Positions 1 to 7,539 of a stretch of 7,539 nucleotides of DNA are shown here, piece by piece. The translations under genes were made by a program, and so were the position numbers. Origin of the DNA: Chloroflexota bacterium (GTDB lineage Bacteria > Chloroflexota > UBA5177 > JANWHV01); NCBI GenBank assembly GCA_025450255.1, contig JANWHV010000109.1, forward strand, positions 1 through 7,539, given 5' to 3'. The notes under the pieces are model-generated. The model was not told the origin of the DNA. It was given only the letters and a program-made list of their open reading frames with translations, and made no database searches. The stretch's first letter is position 1. Each line of letters begins with the position of its first letter.

Positions 1-124
1 ACGGGCTGCCGCTGCATCCGCGAAGACCATAGGCGCCTGATCCACAAGTCCGTGCGCTACTATGGGTGATATCGGCGAGACCCGGCATTTTGTCTTGAAC
101 GACACGCTCCGGCTTTGCAATGAC

Positions 125-134
125 GGGGAGGGGT
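125..134 (+). promoter_or_regulatory. Ribosome binding site of the sensor histidine kinase
   Basis: The purine-rich run GGGGAGGGG lies just before the ATG at 137, with its GGAG core 6 bases from the start codon. It supports this ATG as the translation start of the kinase. No convincing -35/-10 promoter pair is visible in the 136 bases upstream. Confidence 0.75.
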
Positions 135-136
135 AG

Positions 137-2452
137 ATGACCGGCGCGCAACCTGACCTCGCTCCCGGCCCGGACGTCTTCTTCGCGCTCACCGCGCACT
201 CCCACGAGCCCGCGGCCTTGCTGGATGCTGATGGTACGTTCCGCTATGCCAGCCCGGCCTTCCGCCATGTCCTTGGCTACGCGCCCGAGGACATACTGGG
301 CACCAACGCCTTTGACAATATTCATGCGGAGGACCACGCCCGCGCGCTGGCCGCGTTCGTCGCCATCGTGGAGGCCGACGACGGCACGCCCACGGTCCTT
401 CACAACCGCTACCGCCACGCGGACGGCTCCTGGCGGATGCTGGAGACGACAGGCAGCAGCCTTTTCAAGAACCCCCTGGTCCGCGCCTTCATCGCCACGA
501 GCCACGACATCACCGAGCATCGCCGTGCCGAGGAACGGCTGGTCGAACAGGAGGCCCAGTACCGCGGCATCTTCGAGGCCACGATCGATGGTCTGGTGAT
601 TCTCACCCTTGACGGTTATATCGCCGAGGCAAACCCCGCTTTCTGCGCCATGTACGGCTATCGCTATGACGAGATCATCGGCATGCCGGCCACGGCGTTC
701 GTCCATCCGTCCAATCACGACATCCAGGTGAAACACCTCGAGGATGCCCGCCGCGGCCGTTCAGGGTGGGATAAGGAACTGGGGGTGCGGAAAGACGGCA
801 CGTTGTTCGACGTGGAGGCGCACGGCGCCATGTTTTCCTTCAAGGGGACGCCGCACGTGCTCGGCATTGACCGCGACATCAGTGATAGGGCGCGGGCGGA
901 GGCCCAACTGCTGGAGAAGGAAGCGCAGTACCGCGGCATCTTCGAAGCGACCAGCGACGGCATGGTGATCATCGATTTCGAGGGCAACGTCGTCGAGGCG
1001 AACCCCGCCTTCTGCGCCATGTATGGATACCAGTACGACGAGATGATCGGACTCAACGTCGCGGTACTATCCACCGCCGAGAGTCGGCATGTCATCGAGG
1101 AATCGTTCGCGGCTATCCTTGCCGACGGCTCCTTTCATGCCGAAGGCGGCGCTACCCATAAAGACGGCACGGTGTTCAATCTCGAGGCGCATAGCACGAT
1201 GTTCACGTATAAGGGGCAGCCTCATATTCTTGGCGTGGCGCGCGACATCACGGATCGCGTGCGGGCCAAGGAATTGTTGGAGCAGCGCGTGGCGGAACGC
1301 ACGCGTGAGCTCTCGACCTTGCTCGACGTGTCGCGCAACGTCGCGTCCACCTTGCAATTGCAACCGCTGCTTAACCTGGTCCTCGATCAGCTAGGGACGG
1401 TCGTGGAGTACACGGGCGCCGGCATCTCGGTACTGGAAGGGGCCGAGATGCGCATCGCCGCCTACCGCGGTCCCGGATCCCAGGTACTGGCTCTCGATAC
1501 ACGGTTGCCGAGCGCGTCGGCCGGCCCGCTCTGGGAGTGGATGCGGCGGGGAGAGCCGGTCATCATCCAGGATGTGCGCGCCGATTCCCATGAGGCGTTG
1601 CTCTATCGCCAGTCGGTCGGAGGGCATATGAACGGGTCGTTCAGCTATGTCCGCTCCTGGATGTCCGTACCCTTGCGCGTCCGCGACCGGGATCTCGGCT
1701 CGGTGTTCCTCGAGCACGCGCAACCCAACGTCTATACGCCGCGCCATGCCGAGCTGGCGCTGGCGATTGCGCGCCAGGCCGCGATCGCCATTGATAATGC
1801 GCGTCTGTACGAGCAGGTACATGAGGCGGCCGCGCTTGAAGAGCGCCAGCGACTGGCCCGCGAGCTGCACGACTCGGTCTCGCAGGCCCTCTATGGCATC
1901 GGGCTGGGCGCCACGACCGCGCGTGCCCTGCTGGCGCGTGACCCGCAACAGGTAGCCGCTCCCCTGGACTACGTGATCACCCTGGCAAAAGCCGGGCTGG
2001 CCGAGATGCGCGCCCTGATTTTCGAGCTGCTCCCCGAGGCGCTGGAAACCGAGGGACTGATCGCCGCCCTGACCAAGCAGACGGCGGCGGTGCAAGCGCG
2101 GTACGGGCTCGCCGTCGACGTGATGCTGGGCGAGGAGCCGGAGGCGGATCTGCCGGCGAAGCAGGCGATCTACCGCATCGCGCAAGAGGCGCTGCACAAC
2201 GTGGTGAAGCACGCGCGCGCCGGCTCGATCGTGCTTCGCCTGGAAGCGTCCGCCGGCCACCTGGCATTGGAGGTGCGTGATGACGGCATGGGCTTCGATG
2301 CCGGCGGCTCATTCCCCGGCCATCTGGGGTTGCGCTCGATGCGCGAGCGGGCCACAAGCCTCGGCGGCACGCTCGATGCGGCGAGTACGCCCGGCGCGGG
2401 CACGCGGATCCGTGCCCAGGTGCCGCGTTTCGCCGTCGGTCCCGGCAGCTAA
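137..2452 (+). CDS. Soluble multi-PAS/GAF sensor histidine kinase (NarL/HisKA_3 class)
   Basis: This 771-residue protein is a two-component sensor kinase that should autophosphorylate a histidine and pass the phosphate to a response regulator. I see three PAS domains (about residues 14-135, 139-258 and 262-381), a coiled-coil linker (about 375-400), a GAF domain (about 400-555), a HisKA_3 dimerisation domain and a C-terminal HATPase. The H-box reads RLARELHDSVSQAL with phospho-acceptor His578, the form typical of NarL/DegS-type kinases. The ATPase has an N-box with Asn688 (EALHNVVKHA), a G1 box DDGMGF at 715-720 and a G2 box GHLGLRSM from 728. I see no signal peptide or membrane segment, so it should sense a cytoplasmic signal; the ligand cannot be told. 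PAS2 and PAS3 are a tandem duplication. The start is set by a strong ribosome binding site. No LuxR-type regulator, the usual partner of this class, is adjacent, so it is an orphan here. The class call is firm and the signal unknown. Confidence 0.96.
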   Translation: MTGAQPDLAPGPDVFFALTAHSHEPAALLDADGTFRYASPAFRHVLGYAPEDILGTNAFDNIHAEDHARALAAFVAIVEADDGTPTVLHNRYRHADGSWRMLETTGSSLFKNPLVRAFIATSHDITEHRRAEERLVEQEAQYRGIFEATIDGLVILTLDGYIAEANPAFCAMYGYRYDEIIGMPATAFVHPSNHDIQVKHLEDARRGRSGWDKELGVRKDGTLFDVEAHGAMFSFKGTPHVLGIDRDISDRARAEAQLLEKEAQYRGIFEATSDGMVIIDFEGNVVEANPAFCAMYGYQYDEMIGLNVAVLSTAESRHVIEESFAAILADGSFHAEGGATHKDGTVFNLEAHSTMFTYKGQPHILGVARDITDRVRAKELLEQRVAERTRELSTLLDVSRNVASTLQLQPLLNLVLDQLGTVVEYTGAGISVLEGAEMRIAAYRGPGSQVLALDTRLPSASAGPLWEWMRRGEPVIIQDVRADSHEALLYRQSVGGHMNGSFSYVRSWMSVPLRVRDRDLGSVFLEHAQPNVYTPRHAELALAIARQAAIAIDNARLYEQVHEAAALEERQRLARELHDSVSQALYGIGLGATTARALLARDPQQVAAPLDYVITLAKAGLAEMRALIFELLPEALETEGLIAALTKQTAAVQARYGLAVDVMLGEEPEADLPAKQAIYRIAQEALHNVVKHARAGSIVLRLEASAGHLALEVRDDGMGFDAGGSFPGHLGLRSMRERATSLGGTLDAASTPGAGTRIRAQVPRFAVGPGS
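551..1270 (+). repeat. Intragenic tandem duplication of a PAS domain (369-bp period)
   Basis: Two consecutive PAS modules align without any indel at an offset of exactly 369 bp (123 codons). Three anchors show this: EAQYRGIFEA (codons starting 551 and 920), NPAFCAMYGY (about 632 and 1001) and the KDGT motif (791 and 1160). Much of the first half is identical or nearly so at both DNA and protein level. The sensor half of the kinase therefore grew by an in-frame duplication of one PAS unit. The first PAS domain (residues 14-135) is clearly more diverged. Confidence 0.85.
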
Positions 2453-2574
2453 GCGAACCCCGGCCACCGCGCGTATCATGACCTTCCAGTGCCCCGCTCC
2501 CGCCGGCGATTCCGCTCGGAGTGGGAAGCCGCCAGGGTGGTTTACATGCAGTCCCGCCCCGCGCACGCGAACCC

Positions 2575-2620
2575 TTCCGCTCCTCCGTGTCTCAGTGCCT
2601 CCGTGGTTTCCGTTCCTCTC
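2575..2620 (-). repeat. Dispersed intergenic 'HGGTETRR' repeat element
   Basis: Read on the minus strand, this stretch contains AACCACGGAGGCACTGAGAC followed by an ACGGAG repeat. Its conceptual translation includes NHGGTETRR. Such ACGGAGNCAC-type sequences recur between genes in many unrelated bacterial genomes and generate spurious protein annotations. It sits between the convergent 3' ends of the histidine kinase and the FAD oxidoreductase, a typical location. I do not regard it as coding. A related, degenerate element of the same style lies at 7011-7052 on the other strand. Confidence 0.55.
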
Positions 2621-2627
2621 GCGCCGG

Positions 2628-3848
2628 TCAATCGTCCAGCAGCAGGCGTCGCAGATAGGGGTTGAGGAACCGTCCGCGAGGATCGACGCGGGCACGCTGC
2701 TCGCGGAAGCGATCCCACATCGGATAGAGCGCGCGCAGCTCGCTTGCCGTATGAGTGTGCAGCTTGGCCCAGTGCGGCCGGCCGCCGTGATTGCGGAACA
2801 CCGCCTCGGCATCGGCGAAGAACGCCTGGTACGGCAACTCGTTCGACTGATGCAGGGAGAGCGTCACCGAATCGCGCCTGTAGGCGGGGCTGAGGTACAA
2901 ATCAGCCTGGCGCAGGGTGCGGTATTCTATCGGCCACTCCACCGCGGGGTGCCGCTCGCGCATCAGCAGCCGCAATTCGCGGAAACACTCGGGACCGCGC
3001 TCGATTGGCACGGCGAACTCCATCTCCACGAACTTCAGGGCGCGTTCGGAGGCAAAGACGCGGTAACTCCAGTCCACGCGCTCGGGCCGCGTGTAGCGTT
3101 CGATGGTGCCGGCGCGGGCGGCGGCATCCGTGTCCTCGTCCCCGCCTACTGCCGCGCCGGTGGTATTCAGGGTCTTCATGGCCGAGGCGTCGTACCGCGG
3201 CAGCCAGAAGAACTCGAAATGCTCGTTCCCGTCGACCAGCGCTTGCAGTTGGTCCATGGTGTCCTCGAACGACGCCACCCAGGTGCGCTCGTGCAGGCGA
3301 AACGCGGGCGCCACGCGCATGGTGACGCGCGTGATGATGCCCAGCAGCCCCAGCGATAGCTGGGCCGCCTTGAAGAGCGCCGGCTCGACGGTAGAGGAGC
3401 AGGTCAGGCGATCGCCCGACGCCAGGAGGAGGTCGAGCGCCGTCACGCGCGACGACAGGCTGCCGAAGCGGATACCGGTGCCGTGCGTGCCGGTAGCGAT
3501 GGCGCCGGCCAGCGCCTGGTAATCCACATCACCCTGGTTCTCCAGCGCCAGGCCCTCGGCGCGCAGCATATCGCCCAGCCGCGCGATCTTGGTGCCTGCC
3601 CAGATCGTGGCTTCCCCGGCGGCGGGGTCGCTCGCGATGACGCCCTGCAGCGCGTCCAGCGAGATCAGGGTGTCGTCCGTGGCGCAGAGCGGCGTGAACG
3701 AATGGCCCGTGCCGGCCACGCGGATAGCGCCGGCATCCGTTCGCTGGAGAATCGCCGCCAGTTCCTGCTCGCTGTCTGGCGTCTCGAAATGCCGGGGCCG
3801 GCACTCGACGATGCCGGACCAGTTCGTCCACGCGTCCATGCGCTTCAT
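2628..3848 (-). CDS. FAD-linked oxidoreductase, aldonolactone/alditol oxidase family
   Basis: This predicted 406-residue flavoenzyme belongs to the family of D-arabinono-1,4-lactone oxidase, L-gulonolactone oxidase and alditol oxidase, which oxidise a sugar lactone or polyol with FAD. The N-terminal FAD-binding domain (about residues 15-150) has RVAGTGHSFTPL with His49, the position where related enzymes attach FAD covalently, and later the family motif ATGTHGTG. The C-terminal ALO domain (about 150-405) has the block YLSPAYRRDSVTLSLHQ, then HWAKLH (359-364) and DPRGRFLNPYL near the end. WTNWSG at residues 7-12 is the usual start of these proteins. The reading frame stays open to 4004, but the upstream codons look unlike the family, so I place the start at 3848. 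A second ATG at 3839 is equally possible, and neither has a clear ribosome binding site. No neighbouring sugar genes reveal the substrate, and no signal peptide is seen, so it is probably cytoplasmic. Confidence 0.93.
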   Translation of the reverse strand: MKRMDAWTNWSGIVECRPRHFETPDSEQELAAILQRTDAGAIRVAGTGHSFTPLCATDDTLISLDALQGVIASDPAAGEATIWAGTKIARLGDMLRAEGLALENQGDVDYQALAGAIATGTHGTGIRFGSLSSRVTALDLLLASGDRLTCSSTVEPALFKAAQLSLGLLGIITRVTMRVAPAFRLHERTWVASFEDTMDQLQALVDGNEHFEFFWLPRYDASAMKTLNTTGAAVGGDEDTDAAARAGTIERYTRPERVDWSYRVFASERALKFVEMEFAVPIERGPECFRELRLLMRERHPAVEWPIEYRTLRQADLYLSPAYRRDSVTLSLHQSNELPYQAFFADAEAVFRNHGGRPHWAKLHTHTASELRALYPMWDRFREQRARVDPRGRFLNPYLRRLLLDD

Positions 3849-4148
3849 CTTTCGCGGTCGGGCCGGCAACCTCAGATCACCGTATCGTACCGCATTGGGC
3901 AAGTGACACCGCCCTGTGCCTCGTGTCTGGTGCCCGCCAACGCCGTGATAAGACACGTGGGAACGCGCATCCAGGTATTCAGTTCTCTGTCCATTGGCGA
4001 CCATGGGCGTGCCGTTGCAATCGCGGCGCGGTGGCGCGCCGGGTTATCGGCTCAGGCAACCGTTCGACAGGGCGCCGGCACGCGAAACCGTACGTATCGG
4101 AACCTGAGGCATGCGAGAAATGAGCGGATTGAGGGCGCGCCTGTCGAT
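3849..4148. other. Intergenic region with no recognised feature
   Basis: About 300 bases separate the start of the FAD oxidoreductase from the stop of the Rpn-like gene, both on the minus strand. I see no credible gene, tRNA, strong terminator or obvious promoter pair. Short palindromes (CACGTG near 3955, two GGCGCGCC sites) are of the sort expected in GC-rich DNA. The promoter of the oxidoreductase should lie in the right-hand part of this region or just upstream of its ATG, but I cannot place it. Confidence 0.6.
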
Positions 4149-4424
4149 TCAGGCCGTTGCTTCGAGTCGCGCGCGCGCCTGTTCCGACGAGTCGGTGCCA
4201 ATATGCGCCAGGGCATCGGCGAGTTGTGCCTCGTTCGCCTGCCGCAGCGCGTTCAGGAACGGCTCATCCAGCGTACCAAACCGCCCTTCGAGCGCGATAC
4301 GGGCCGATTCTCGCATGGCCGCGTCCCGGGCCAGGGGCATCGCTGCTTCCATGGCCAGGGGCATCGCTGCTTCCATCGCTCGTTCCATAGCTTGCGCCGT
4401 GGCTCGTTCCATGGCTCGTTCCAT
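4149..4424 (-). CDS. Candidate internal start giving a 91-residue C-terminal product (RpnS-like, shorter form)
   Basis: A second internal ATG in the same frame (4422-4424) is preceded by GAGGAG at 4431-4436 with a 6-base spacer. It begins exactly at the first MERA unit of the four-residue repeat helix and would give about 91 residues: eight repeat units plus the C-terminal tail. GAGGAG also simply encodes Glu-Glu of the full-length protein, so its ribosome binding role could be fortuitous. It is an alternative or an addition to the start at 4481. Only one of the two needs to be real for the gene-within-gene model. Confidence 0.35.
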   Translation of the reverse strand: MERAMERATAQAMERAMEAAMPLAMEAAMPLARDAAMRESARIALEGRFGTLDEPFLNALRQANEAQLADALAHIGTDSSEQARARLEATA

Positions 4425-4481
4425 GCCGAGCTCCTCGAAGATTACGGTGGCGCTGGACTCCTTGAGTAAATCCTCTAACAT
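4149..4481 (-). CDS. Candidate internal start giving a 110-residue C-terminal product (RpnS-like, longer form)
   Basis: Inside the Rpn-like gene, in the same frame, two adjacent ATG codons (4482-4484 and 4479-4481) follow the minus-strand sequence GGGAGGAGC. The GGAGG core is 6 bases before the second ATG, close to ideal. Translation from here gives MLEDLLKESS and runs through the four-residue repeats to the gene's own stop, about 110 residues. It lacks the nuclease core entirely. In characterised Rpn systems a separately made C-terminal fragment acts as antitoxin to the full-length protein; this is the position and architecture expected. Independent translation is inferred, not shown. Confidence 0.4.
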   Translation of the reverse strand: MLEDLLKESSATVIFEELGMERAMERATAQAMERAMEAAMPLAMEAAMPLARDAAMRESARIALEGRFGTLDEPFLNALRQANEAQLADALAHIGTDSSEQARARLEATA

Positions 4482-5129
4482 CATGCTCCTCCCGAGGGCA
4501 TCGCGAATCAGGTTCGGCGGCAGTCGTAGTCCCGCGAGCAACACCAGCAGGCTGGTCAGATCGCTTCTTTCCTGTAGCGGCCGTGGCGACGCGGCGATCT
4601 GCTCCGCTGCCTGCACGACCGTGCCAACCGTGGCGCCCTCCATTAGGCTTGCCAGCGGCCACAACTCCACGTACGGGGCGTCGAGCGCGCGCCTGGCCGG
4701 CACGTCCCACAGACGCACTACCTCGAAGTTGTAGCGCAGGCTATCCTGACCCATCCAGTCTATCACGAACGGGGAGATGCTCTCCATGCCTGATGGCCGC
4801 AGGACGATCACAATTGAACGGATCGGCAGGTGGTCGCGCCGCCAGAGGCGGATGGCATATTCGGCCATGCGCTCGCCAATATCGGCCGCGGCGCGCGTTT
4901 GTAGCTCGATGTGCAGGAGCCCGATCGAGCGATCGATACGCTCCACCTCCCATACGATGTCGGCCAGACGAGCGATGGCCGGCAACTCGGTCGGCCGATC
5001 GCGCCGCCACGTCAACTCCGGCGCTACAAGAGCCAGGAACCCGTCGTGCCCATCCAGTAGCACGCGTTTCAACGCCTGATCGATGTTCACTCGTTCGGAC
5101 GGAGACATCGCGAAACGGGCCTTTCTCAT
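4149..5129 (-). CDS. Rpn-like PD-(D/E)XK nuclease with C-terminal tetrapeptide-repeat tail
   Basis: This roughly 326-residue protein resembles the Rpn (recombination-promoting nuclease / putative transposase) group. The likely catalytic core is Asp57 (LADIVWEV) followed by Glu75-x-Gln77 (LLHIELQ), the E-x-Q form of the PD-(D/E)XK motif seen in these proteins. Next comes a helix with ERMAEYAIRLW, a family-style R..Y..L segment. The C-terminal third is Ala/Glu/Met/Arg-rich and helical, with eight four-residue units (about 236-267), then a conserved-looking tail ending ARLEATA. Known Rpn proteins are DNA nucleases in which a separately translated C-terminal piece inhibits the full-length toxin and which can protect against phage. 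Two internal ATGs here have good ribosome binding sites. The start is uncertain: TTG at 5141 has an AGGG at usable spacing, ATG at 5129 abuts AGGA, and ATG at 5108 lacks a site. I choose 5129 as a compromise. The family call is from motif pattern only; activity is inferred. Confidence 0.75.
   Translation of the reverse strand: MRKARFAMSPSERVNIDQALKRVLLDGHDGFLALVAPELTWRRDRPTELPAIARLADIVWEVERIDRSIGLLHIELQTRAAADIGERMAEYAIRLWRRDHLPIRSIVIVLRPSGMESISPFVIDWMGQDSLRYNFEVVRLWDVPARRALDAPYVELWPLASLMEGATVGTVVQAAEQIAASPRPLQERSDLTSLLVLLAGLRLPPNLIRDALGRSMMLEDLLKESSATVIFEELGMERAMERATAQAMERAMEAAMPLAMEAAMPLARDAAMRESARIALEGRFGTLDEPFLNALRQANEAQLADALAHIGTDSSEQARARLEATA
4329..4424 (-). repeat. Coding 12-bp tandem repeat array (eight units)
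   Basis: Ninety-six bases form eight 12-bp units. Positions 4329-4352 and 4353-4376 are a perfect 24-bp tandem duplication (each two 12-bp subunits). 4401-4412 and 4413-4424 are identical (ggctcgttccat); 4377-4388 differs by one base, and 4389-4400 is a diverged unit. On the minus strand they encode tetrapeptides: MERA twice, TAQA, MERA, then MEAA and MPLA alternating twice. Because 12 bp is a multiple of three, gain or loss of units keeps the frame, so copy number can vary between strains without breaking the gene. Confidence 0.92.
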
Positions 5130-5221
5130 TCCTAACGTCAATGCTTACACCCTACCACGGCGGCGAGGGCAGACGACCGGCGGTATCCGCACAACGGCGA
5201 GCGGTCCCCCCGGTTCCCGGC

Positions 5222-5271
5222 CATTTCCCGCGGCGCTGCTACTGACGCGTACTGGCGCATGCGCGTCGCCG
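5222..5271 (+). repeat. Dispersed ~50-bp repeat, copy A, with inverted repeat
   Basis: This segment aligns without gaps, at an offset of 1959 bp, to 7181-7230. The right-hand 31 bases (5241-5271) match at 26 positions, centred on a shared ACTGG(C/T)GCATGCGCGT; the left-hand part matches more loosely. Within it GACGCG (5244-5249) and CGCGTC (5262-5267) form an inverted repeat around a 12-base loop. It lies roughly 90-145 bases upstream of the Rpn-like gene start and next to the 38-bp palindrome. It could be an operator, a structured RNA element or a remnant of a dispersed repeat. Confidence 0.6.
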
Positions 5272-5273
5272 TA

Positions 5274-5311
5274 AGGAAGCTCCGCCGGTGCGCGCACCGG
5301 CGGAGCTTCCT
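5274..5311 (-). terminator. 38-bp perfect palindrome, probable hairpin after the ferritin-like gene
   Basis: The two 19-base arms are exact reverse complements (5274-5292, beginning aggaagctccgcc, and 5293-5311). On the minus strand the hairpin begins 27 bases after the stop of the ferritin-like gene, where a terminator is expected. There is no U-run on either side, so it is not a textbook rho-independent terminator. It may act as a U-less terminator or an mRNA-stabilising 3' hairpin, or it may be a protein-binding palindrome. The structure is certain and its role inferred. Confidence 0.65.
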
Positions 5312-5338
5312 ATGCGATGACCTGTCCGCGGTCGGCGC

Positions 5339-6199
5339 CTACTGCGCGCTGTCGCTCTCCTCCAACTGCTTCGAGGTGATCGGCGCGCGGCTGACGATCC
5401 GGGCGTTCACGTCGCTATACACCGGATCGTGCTCGTAGTCGATCGGCGTGTAGGAGAAGCTGTTCCCGGTACTGGCATTCGGGCTCAGGAAGCCGGCGGC
5501 GGCGACGACGGCGGGCGCGTCGCCCACCGCCTCCAGGGTGAGCAGGCCGTAGACCCAGTTGTCGGCGGGATTGTAGCTGTCGTCACCCGTGCCGCTGATG
5601 CCGGCCGCGGCGGCGATGTTGCGGCCCAGGGCGCGGTGCTCGGACTCTACCATGGCGATCTCCGCCGCGATCTGGGCGAGGTCCGGGCGGCCGGCCTGCG
5701 CGAACTCGTAGACGGCGGCGATGAAGGCGGCATCGAAGACCCCTTCGAGCATCTGCTGGGTGGCGATGAACAAGCCCAGGTCGGCGAAGGTGCCCAGGCC
5801 ATAGGGGAAGCTGAAGGTGGTGGCCAGCGATCCGCCCCCGGCCGCGGTAAAGAACTGCTGGTGGATTTGCTCCTCGATCGCCGCCGCCTTGATGTTGTCG
5901 AGGTGCAGCCCGCTGAGCTTGAGCTTACCCGCCACGGCGCTGCGAATGCCGTTCTCGTAGAAGGTGACGGCAAGCTGCTCCGCCGTGCGCGCCACGGTGA
6001 AGATCGTGGCGAAGCTGTCCTCGGCGCTGCTCCCCGTCCCGTTATCCGCCGCCTGCACGGGCATCCTGGACAGCAACCCAGCGCCGGCGATGGCCGCGCC
6101 GGCGCCCAGCGCGCCCTTGAGCATCGACCGCCGTGAGCGGCGCGCGTCGAGCGAGTGCAACAGGTTCTCGGTCGCCGCGTGCCTTGTCTGTTCGTCCAT
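5339..6199 (-). CDS. Tat-exported ferritin-like di-iron domain protein
   Basis: This 286-residue protein has an N-terminal twin-arginine signal: SRRSMLKG at 22-29, then a Gly/Ala-rich hydrophobic stretch to about 43, and a probable cleavage site near PVQAAD (47-52). It should thus be exported folded, probably with metal bound. The mature part is a Ferritin_2-type four-helix bundle with plausible di-iron ligands Glu74, Glu110-x-x-His113, Glu152 and Glu185-x-x-His188. The two ExxH pairs and single glutamates are in the canonical order. The ~75-residue tail (PADNWVYGLL onward) is outside the bundle. Such proteins may handle iron or oxidative stress outside the membrane, but the substrate is not known. 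The frame is open to 6346, but ATG 6199 has AGGAAGG six bases upstream and starts right before the signal peptide, so it is the clear start. It is divergent from the receiver gene and followed by a large hairpin, so probably monocistronic. Confidence 0.9.
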   Translation of the reverse strand: MDEQTRHAATENLLHSLDARRSRRSMLKGALGAGAAIAGAGLLSRMPVQAADNGTGSSAEDSFATIFTVARTAEQLAVTFYENGIRSAVAGKLKLSGLHLDNIKAAAIEEQIHQQFFTAAGGGSLATTFSFPYGLGTFADLGLFIATQQMLEGVFDAAFIAAVYEFAQAGRPDLAQIAAEIAMVESEHRALGRNIAAAAGISGTGDDSYNPADNWVYGLLTLEAVGDAPAVVAAAGFLSPNASTGNSFSYTPIDYEHDPVYSDVNARIVSRAPITSKQLEESDSAQ

Positions 6200-6375
6200 G
6201 ACCAACCTTCCTATCCTCTGTCCGGCCGCCCCAACGCGGCCGCCGACACAGGTAATACGCCGGCCATCGTTAACTCGATTACGGGCATGAAGAGCGGCGC
6301 CGCGACACGCCGGCCATGCGCGCGGGGATGACGAGCATGCGGCCATGTCACGACGCGGCGGGCCGTGGATCCGCG

Positions 6376-6416
6376 GTTAACGCCTTTTTAACCCCGCCGT
6401 TAACCGCATCTTCACG
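6376..6416 (+). promoter_or_regulatory. Four direct TTAAC-type hexamers at 11-12 bp period, PhoP/PhoB-box-like
   Basis: Hexamers TTAACG (6377-6382), TTAACC (6388-6393), TTAACC (6400-6405) and TTCACG (6411-6416) start 11, 12 and 11 bases apart, one helical turn each. This resembles the direct-repeat boxes bound by OmpR/PhoB-family regulators, in particular the Bacillus PhoP box (TTAACA-like units with about 5-base spacers). The array sits 74-114 bases upstream of the receiver gene. The first and third copies also form a 10-bp inverted repeat, GCGGTTAACG (6373-6382) and CGTTAACCGC (6398-6407), so a dimeric repressor is an alternative reading. An isolated CGTTAA occurs at 6268-6273 on the ferritin-gene side. 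Confidence 0.45.
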
Positions 6417-6474
6417 CCGGCATGCTTTGCTACGTGCAGTGACGATGTACCGCGTGCGCCGGGGCGCAACGCGC

Positions 6475-6480
6475 GGAAGG
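6475..6480 (+). promoter_or_regulatory. Ribosome binding site of the receiver gene
   Basis: GGAAGG lies 9 bases before ATG 6490 and 3 bases before an in-frame GTG at 6484. The spacing favours ATG 6490, which also places the first beta strand (KTLLIVEDD) directly at the N-terminus as in other receivers. Confidence 0.6.
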
Positions 6481-6489
6481 TCCGTGTCG

Positions 6490-6876
6490 ATGAAGACATT
6501 GCTCATAGTCGAGGACGACGAAATCACCCGCGGCATGTTGCTGGAGATGTTGCGCGTAAACACGGACTGGCGCGCGATAGCGGTCGCGGACGGCCCCATG
6601 CTGCTCAAGACGGTGAGCGTGATCAGGCCGGACCTGGTGATCCTCGACATCGTGATGGACTACATGGATGGCCTGGAGGCGCATCGGTTGCTCCGCGAGC
6701 ACCCGTTCGGCGCCGACATTCCCGTGCTCTTCGTCACGGCCAATTTGGTGAAAGCCGAGGCCGCGCACCTGACCGGCGCGCACGCGTTGCTCGAAAAGCC
6801 ATTCCACCTGAACGTGCTGATCGACAAGGTTGAAACCATGCTGGCGTCGCCGGGCGCCGGGTCTTCACGGGTGTAA
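6490..6876 (+). CDS. Stand-alone response regulator receiver (CheY-like)
   Basis: This 128-residue protein is a single receiver domain with no DNA-binding or enzymatic output. The acidic pair Asp9-Asp10 (LLIVEDDE), the phospho-acceptor Asp53 (DLVILDIVMDYMDG), Thr83 (VLFVTAN) and Lys103 in LEKPF are all in place, so it should accept phosphate from a histidine kinase. After Lys103 there is only a last helix and a short tail (SPGAGSSRV). It must act by binding a partner, as in a phosphorelay, or modulate another protein. No kinase is adjacent; the nearest is the NarL-class kinase 4 kb upstream, whose typical partners carry LuxR-type outputs. The reading frame is open back to 6316, but the upstream residues do not look like part of a receiver and the ribosome binding site supports 6490. 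The upstream direct-repeat boxes suggest control by an OmpR/PhoB-type regulator. Confidence 0.93.
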   Translation: MKTLLIVEDDEITRGMLLEMLRVNTDWRAIAVADGPMLLKTVSVIRPDLVILDIVMDYMDGLEAHRLLREHPFGADIPVLFVTANLVKAEAAHLTGAHALLEKPFHLNVLIDKVETMLASPGAGSSRV

Positions 6877-7010
6877 GCAAGGTGTTGTTATATCCTGGCG
6901 CGACATAGAGCGAACCGCCACGTACGGGAGCATCGCAAGGCCGGGTTAGCCTGCCTGCGAGCGACTGCGCTCTACCCCTAATTATCGCCCACGCCTGCCG
7001 TGGCCGGGCA

Positions 7011-7052
7011 CACGAAGAAAACAACACGGAGATCGCGAAGATCGCGGAGGGA
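7011..7052 (+). repeat. Degenerate ACGGAG-type periodic intergenic element
   Basis: The run AACACGGAGATCGCGAAG continues into ATCGCGGAGG, a purine-rich 9-12 bp periodicity like that of the minus-strand element at 2575-2620. Its open frames give low-complexity Arg-rich or Glu/Ile/Ala-rich peptides typical of spurious translations of this repeat class. It is probably another, more diverged member of the same dispersed class. Confidence 0.4.
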
Positions 7053-7090
7053 CGCCTGGCGGCGTTCTCACGGTCGGTCCGCCGCCGCGC

Positions 7091-7123
7091 GAGCATACAT
7101 ATCCTGTGAAATCCGCCGGCAAT
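7091..7123 (+). repeat. 73-bp-spaced direct repeat, copy 1
   Basis: This 33-base segment matches 7164-7196 at 28 positions. The final 18 bases (gtgaaatccgccggcaat) are identical. All five differences are transitions. After the shared block the two copies diverge, apart from a GCGCACTTG..TGCA / GCGCACTGG.TGCA resemblance a little further on. Confidence 0.8.
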
Positions 7124-7163
7124 CCGGCAGTTCCGGCGTGCGCACTTGCTGCACATCCAGCGT

Positions 7164-7230
7164 GAGCATGTACATCTCGTGAAATCCGCCGGCAATGGTA
7201 CTAACGCGCACTGGTGCATGCGCGTGGCGG
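7164..7230 (+). repeat. Direct repeat copy 2 fused to dispersed repeat copy B, with inverted repeat
   Basis: The left part (7164-7196) is the second copy of the 33-base direct repeat. The right part (7181-7230) matches 5222-5271. It contains the inverted repeat ACGCGCA (7204-7210) / TGCGCGT (7219-7225) with an 8-base loop, ending 21 bases before the HTH/WYL start codon, an operator-like or 5'-leader position. In copy A the corresponding arms still pair with one G-T mismatch, so the dyad is preserved despite sequence change. Confidence 0.65.
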
Positions 7231-7246
7231 GTGTACAGTAGACAGC

Positions 7247-7539
7247 ATGAAGCAATTTCCCATTGGCCACGATCTTGGGACCCGGCTGGAGGAAACCAAG
7301 CGCATCACGCGCATCTTGCTGCTGGTGACAATCATTAGCAGCGCGCCCCGCCGCTGGACCCGGCGGAGGTTGAGCGAGCACTTCGAGATCAGCGAACGGC
7401 AGCTCGACAATGACTTCATGCAGATCCGGCAGGGTCTCAAGTGCGAGCTGAGGCACAGCCGCGAGGGCTACTACTTCACAAGGCTGCCGGAGCTGCCGCC
7501 GGTGCGCTACACCACGCCCGAGGCGCTGGCGCTGATCAC
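7247..7539 (+). CDS. HTH/WYL-domain transcriptional regulator, 5' part (runs off the window)
   Basis: An open frame from ATG 7247 continues without a stop to the window end, giving 97 complete codons. Residues about 19-77 form a DeoR-type winged helix-turn-helix: a first helix (KRITRILLLVTII), the recognition segment RRLSEHFEISERQLDNDFMQI and the wing EGYYFTRL. It is followed by the linker LPELPPVRYTTPEALALI, which in this family leads into a WYL ligand-sensing domain. That domain is beyond the window, so the WYL call is inferred from the HTH and linker style. WYL regulators act as dimers on inverted repeats and often control phage-defence or stress genes. An inverted repeat lies just upstream of the start, which fits autoregulation. 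The ribosome binding site is weak (only AGTAGACAGC before ATG). Confidence 0.8.
   Translation, partial: MKQFPIGHDLGTRLEETKRITRILLLVTIISSAPRRWTRRRLSEHFEISERQLDNDFMQIRQGLKCELRHSREGYYFTRLPELPPVRYTTPEALALI

Follow-up and report, generated by a model that had tools for sequence, protein, structure and literature searches.

Does a single gene from a phylum far removed from the enterobacteria encode both a toxic nuclease and the antitoxin that restrains it? The question is raised by a minus-strand gene in a 7,539-nucleotide stretch of DNA from a Chloroflexota bacterium (GenBank assembly GCA_025450255.1, contig JANWHV010000109.1, positions 1 to 7,539; this whole stretch is called the window below), which an earlier note, made from the letters alone, had read as a gene-within-gene toxin-antitoxin of the Rpn type. 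We consider it very probable that this gene belongs, as a divergent member, to the Rpn group (COG5464), combining a nuclease with an inhibitory tail that is also made separately from an internal start. Of the earlier reading, the Rpn kinship and a conserved internal start have held up, and one of its two proposed starts, at position 4424, has not.

By this account, the full-length product (RpnL) would be a PD-(D/E)XK DNA endonuclease, and ribosomes entering a second time, at GGGAGGAG-CATG-ATG (4481/4484), would yield the C-terminal 110 residues alone (RpnS). The long helix that bears the repeats would be common to both products; RpnS would pair with it in RpnL and keep the nuclease inactive, and the number of four-residue repeats would set partner specificity among the paralogues of one cell. 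Translation of RpnS, its dimerization, inhibition, and specificity are proposed by analogy to Escherichia coli, and the antitoxin role of the tail by analogy with RpnA, RpnB, RpnC, and RpnP2 (PMC10327210). In that paper, a tail product was demonstrated for E. coli genes and, with E. coli as the expression host, for one Clostridioides difficile gene; inhibition by the tail was demonstrated for E. coli genes.

The gene occupies a minus-strand open reading frame (ORF) at 4149-5141 that begins with TTG and includes ATG 5129, the start adopted in the earlier note and the one from which residues of the window protein are counted here. Predicted pairing with the anti-Shine-Dalgarno (anti-SD) sequence is -10.3 kcal/mol (the unit of all pairing energies below) at the internal ATG 4481, -9.7 at ATG 4484, and -8.1 at ATG 4424, which is preceded by GAGGAG at 4431-4436. 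The gene's own start reaches -6.0 at best, at TTG 5141 with the full upstream sequence included; ATG 5108 gives -3.2, and ATG 5129 gives +0.3 on an upstream sequence cut at the end of the ORF. Both internal Shine-Dalgarno (SD) sequences are therefore stronger than any at the gene's own start, as had been claimed. The value at 4481 was reached by 1% of 200 synonymous shuffles of the window gene; the signal exceeds chance in this gene alone and does so far more across its relatives.

Genome contigs supplied 6 related loci; others came from four genomes in which some of these lie, from 47 genomes of the class, and from further regions. The 104 sequences, window included, gave 115 ORF hits, of which 96 distinct ORFs were aligned after removal of repeats of the same protein and of hits below 60 bits; leaving out the 4 that are gapped at the Met column of 4481 gives 92, including that of the window. 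A start codon, sought at this column or one codon to either side with ATG taken first (a procedure that slightly favors finding one), is present in 87 of the 92 (81 ATG and 6 GTG). Where another residue takes the column itself, the following codon is often an ATG that the SD sequence can still reach and that serves in its place, and four of the five ORFs with no start codon there have weak SD sequences. In 38 of the 87 ORFs, a GGAGG ends six bases ahead of the start codon. Across the 92 ORFs, the mean anti-SD energy at the internal start is -9.0, versus -3.3 for synonymous shuffles of the same genes, and the 494 other in-frame internal ATGs average -2.4; the level of -6 is reached by 86% of internal-start sites versus 12% of those other ATGs. 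Set against their shuffles, close (n = 19), middle (n = 53), and distant (n = 20) relatives average -9.4 versus -3.3, -9.4 versus -3.1, and -7.5 versus -3.9, respectively.

A scan along the whole alignment locates the signal precisely. Among 67 representatives sharing less than 60% identity, and over 299 columns each filled in at least 60% of them, the four top-ranked columns (602 to 604 and 609) all lie at the internal start and differ from the null by -5.1 to -6.1 (mean over all columns, 0.10; standard deviation, 0.76). Next in rank, at -0.6 to -1.4, are the columns on either side, 601 and 610, together with columns 326 to 329; the latter four directly precede the column of the conserved D17 (331), in the region in which the gene itself is expected to start.

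Codon choice follows the same pattern. Arginine just upstream of the internal start is written AGG in 73 of 88 cases versus 101 of 1,538 elsewhere (Fisher P = 2e-62), and AGGAGG encodes 26 of 42 Arg-Arg pairs there versus 11 of 243 elsewhere. The SD sequence is also encoded through other residues and phases (GR, QED, KEH, and KEQ), and valine at the start column is GTG in 6 of 8 cases (P = 0.036), although these P values are too small, since the relatives are not independent events. Such a pattern is hard to explain by constraint on the protein alone, and conservation of the signal supports initiation at 4481/4484. The strong SD sequence that the earlier note described before ATG 4481 is borne out, and the check that it suggested, for conservation at the codon level in homologues, came out in its favor. 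Its second start, ATG 4424, was rejected as a conserved feature: Met occurs at that column in 6 of the 96 ORFs and in 4 of 97 aligned proteins, and among those 6 ORFs a strong SD sequence accompanies it in the window only, the five others having values of -1.0 to -3.3. The closest relative, P0001, has Met there at the protein level.

The same site is found outside the phylum. Among 16 cyanobacterial plasmid genes, taken from 33 records matched by one relative of the window protein (P0112), the aligned column is ATG in every one, and the SD sequence is -6 or better in 15, although several genes are near-copies, 4 of these 15 fail to beat 95% of their own shuffles, and some of the genes have other SD-like sites. 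In E. coli K-12 rpnA, AAGGAGAGTTTAATG stands at M244, the residue with which the RpnAS crystal structure (7th0) begins and the published internal start (PMC10327210). We lean slightly toward an internal antitoxin start that is ancestral and nearly universal in Rpn: Chloroflexota and Cyanobacteria share the position of the SD sequence and start codon, E. coli has them at a position that corresponds, and codon choice there appears selected. The tails of some broken copies would perhaps act as orphan antitoxins against paralogues. If so, Rpn would be one ancient gene-within-gene toxin-antitoxin, and its sequence would suffice to annotate the second product in any genome.

As to the nuclease, the earlier note had proposed a PD-(D/E)XK core with D57 and E75-x-Q77, and this appears largely right. 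All of 97 aligned proteins have D57 and E75, and 96 of them have Q77; the loss of these residues in homologues, which would have told against the note, was not seen beyond that one protein. The AlphaFold2 model of the window protein (predicted local distance difference test [pLDDT] score of 91.5) has as its best structural matches PD-(D/E)XK-type nucleases, over residues 8 to 162, with modest Z scores (best, 8.7); Foldseek returned no match of the model at an E value of ≤0.001. Profile alignment to E. coli RpnA with hhalign pairs its D11, D63, E82, Q84, and R94 with D17, D57, E75, Q77, and R87 of the window protein, and mutation of these RpnA residues abolished or changed its activity (PMC5350276).

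Kinship with Rpn was also sought directly. Of 7,996 candidates scored in a search of about 5.8 billion proteins, 114 are relatives of the window protein (E ≤ 0.001); those with a named organism are Ktedonobacterales, and related proteins are mostly 270 to 350 amino acids long. The source name of 8 of the 114 is "predicted transposase YdaD," which we take to be a name of COG5464. That group is the one called Rpn in PMC10327210. In an alignment of 42 members, three of them distant, PF04754 matched 10 (E ≤ 0.1; best, 1.4e-4) and DUF4351 matched 6 (E ≤ 0.1; best, 9.9e-20), the window protein not among the latter. The clearest tie is that of direct tblastn matches to plasmids: five cyanobacterial records (E values of 2e-8 to 5e-6), four of them annotated "Rpn family recombination-promoting nuclease/putative transposase." In four genomes picked for holding a relative, there are 12, 5, 11, and 5 matches to the family, corresponding to about 9, 4, 9, and 5 places (some matches are pieces of one gene), and 32 of the 47 genomes of the class have a match at an E value of ≤1e-20, a multicopy and patchy distribution such as that of Rpn. 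The two of these four genomes with 12 and 11 family matches, at about nine separate places each, are G001 and G003, both of 4.7 Mb.

The tail shows the four-residue repeat variation typical of Rpn, a hallmark of which is variable four-residue repeats that begin 8 to 20 residues past the internal Met (PMC10327210); those of the window protein begin 19 residues past M217. Modeled alone, the tail forms a long helix followed by short helices (pLDDT of 95.2), and the full-length model likewise predicts helices, in agreement with the helical tail described earlier. Between the internal Met column and the RFG motif, the 97 proteins have 16 distinct linker lengths, ranging from 30 to 82 residues, and in 93 of the 97 the length is 2 modulo 4 (P = 1e-50 against 1 in 4, kinship ignored), a rule that is looser in the wider set of loci (49 of 79). 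The closest relative, P0001, has a linker of 82 residues versus 66 in the window protein, at 76% identity. Four other distances between motifs each have a single dominant length (in 59 to 85 of the 97), and the remainder are not spaced by four.

Comparison with known systems brings out both likeness and difference. The D...E-x-Q nuclease motif is common to the window protein and to E. coli RpnA to RpnE and the plasmid-borne RpnP2 (RpnL/RpnS), the window gene and rpnA both have an internal SD-ATG ahead of the tail, and four-residue repeats occur in the E. coli proteins as well (PMC10327210). The window protein differs in escaping PF04754, in belonging to a host of another phylum, in the length of its tail (110 versus 49 amino acids in RpnA), and in its Met/Ala-rich repeats. 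The cyanobacterial Rpn/DUF4351 plasmid proteins (from Nostoc, Synechocystis, and Acaryochloris), five records of which are the direct tblastn relatives, have the internal-start column in common with the window gene; they are 30 to 35% identical to the window protein over 35 to 50% of its length and have tails of 53 to 80 amino acids (15 genes listed with the site) versus its 110. For the C. difficile Rpn gene, a tail product from an internal start was seen upon expression in E. coli (PMC10327210).

Several results weigh against an Rpn toxin-antitoxin. Neither Pfam, NCBIfam, nor PADLOC models matched the window protein, so that the Rpn assignment of the earlier note stands by direct similarity to annotated Rpn proteins but not by the PF04754 profile, which at an E value of ≤1e-5 matched in none of 201 Chloroflexota genomes; the PADLOC result is uninformative because E. 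coli RpnA also has no PADLOC match. The hhalign comparison with RpnA alone scores weakly (probability, 17%; E = 0.0014), the RpnAS structure (7th0) is not among the listed matches of the tail model, and the rpnA start was equated with that of the window gene by position ahead of the tail and repeats, the profile alignment having stopped short of the site. Taken singly, just 48 of the 92 ORFs (3 of 20 in the distant group) do better than 95% of the synonymous shuffles made from them, and the internal SD sequence is stronger than the best one at the gene's own start (averaging -7.5 in 85 ORFs) in 50 of 81 ORFs, not in all. A scan of the window found no internal promoter pattern, and a Pfam scan recognized no defence genes in it.

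Three other explanations were weighed. Internal initiation may be real and the tail a helper of the full-length protein, acting as its stoichiometric subunit in the manner of Cas10d/Cas11d of type I-D CRISPR, a gene-within-gene system that is, to our knowledge, unrelated to Rpn and whose second product, Cas11d, is a helper, not an inhibitor. That products of internal starts can play complementary roles is recognized in PMC10327210, which cites the Cas10d/Cas11d case, and the conservation data bear on initiation only, not on inhibition; we nevertheless think a helper role unlikely, as both kinship and repeat anatomy match Rpn, in whose studied E. coli members the tail inhibits (PMC10327210). 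It is quite improbable that the protein is an ordinary nuclease or a transposase-like protein without toxin-antitoxin function: the YdaD name and the lack of recognized defence genes among its neighbors in the window would suit one, but the name presumably leads back to Rpn. The case made in PMC10327210 is against regarding rpn genes as transposases. That the internal start is conserved likewise speaks against this explanation. That AGGAGG-ATG merely makes elongation pause where the nuclease domain gives way to the tail, or reflects a conserved Arg-Arg-Met, within a single product is very improbable: a slowing of ribosomes by SD-like codons is sometimes proposed, and the Arg-Arg and Met are conserved as residues too, but the preference for AGGAGG, the survival of the SD sequence through residue changes to QED, KEH, and KEQ, the use of GTG for valine, the substitution of a neighboring ATG for a missing Met, and the weak SD sequences of four of the five ORFs lacking a start codon speak against it.

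Several relatives are broken copies. The nuclease frame is interrupted or missing while the internal start and tail frame stay open at L037, L019/L027, L033/L035, L123 to L125, and L130 (the last being the same gene as L021). Of eight places with only the C-terminal part, four (L123, L124, L125, and L130) keep a start codon with an SD sequence of -9.5 or better; in the other four, the site is not in an open frame, and one is cut by the end of a contig. These C-terminal-only places look like the remains of broken genes, and the broken copies fit loss of the toxin before the antitoxin, but could represent recent decay.

This kind of system is already known; what is new is its probable presence in a distant phylum, in proteins mostly missed by Pfam models, where comparison at the codon level points to selection that maintains the second start. 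Excess SD strength at a single alignment column offers a sequence-only test for finding hidden genes of this type, and repeat variation across a multicopy family makes the idea of partner specificity testable among the paralogues of one cell.

A role in phage defence has been shown for RpnP2 (PMC10327210); for the window gene, an anti-phage role, suggested by the E. coli Rpn systems, is the least supported step. Around five relatives, 27 neighboring ORFs were listed and 10 scanned, and no convincing defence genes were found among those 10: one matched PADLOC models, and Pfam identifies it as a Clp-type AAA ATPase, and six had no Pfam match. The cyanobacterial plasmid Rpn genes L110, L119, and L121 adjoin a PIN/HicB toxin-antitoxin pair, an IscB gene, and a type III-B Cas10/Cmr2 gene.

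Table 1. Features of the window, with positions on the 7,539-nucleotide stretch
Feature	Position	Strand	Basis or remark
Histidine kinase	137-2452		Gene of the window
D-Arabinono-1,4-lactone oxidase-type protein	2628-4004	minus	
Rpn-like gene, RpnL-like full-length protein	4149..5141	minus	Start TTG 5141, ATG 5129, or ATG 5108; ORF list and own-start SD values
PD-(D/E)XK nuclease core (predicted), model residues 8-162	4644..5108	minus	AlphaFold2 model and structural matches
Predicted catalytic Asp D57	4959..4961	minus	D in 97/97 proteins
Predicted catalytic E75-x-Q77	4899..4907	minus	E in 97/97, Q in 96/97 proteins
Internal SD sequence GGGAGGAG	4486..4493	minus	-10.3 kcal/mol to ATG 4481; conserved across family
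RpnS-like ORF, 110 amino acids	4149..4481	minus	ATG 4481 or ATG 4484 to shared stop; start column kept, helical model
ATG 4424 (codon 4422-4424) preceded by GAGGAG, the other candidate start, probably incidental	4424..4436	minus	-8.1 kcal/mol; not conserved
Tandem array (12-bp/24-bp units) that encodes the four-residue repeats (MERA, MEAA, MPLA, and others)	4329..4425	minus	Tandem Repeats Finder
C-terminal short helices, RFG motif (R283 F284 G285), DUF4351-like	4149..4300	minus	R in 95, F in 88, G in 91 of 97 proteins
Ferritin-like protein with weak twin-arginine translocation (TAT) signal	5339-6202	minus	
Response regulator	6490-6876		Followed by start of a possible regulator gene

Some repeats lie outside the Rpn-like gene. 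A perfect, gapless 19-bp inverted repeat at 5274-5311, in the spacer that separates the gene from the ferritin-like gene's 3' end, is absent from the list of the terminator scan. A 44-nucleotide repeat occurs at 5226-5269 and 7185-7228 (80% identity), and a 37-nucleotide direct repeat at 7087-7123 and 7160-7196. Inside the histidine kinase gene, whose PAS domains are repeated, there is a duplication at a spacing of 369 nucleotides (524-1271).
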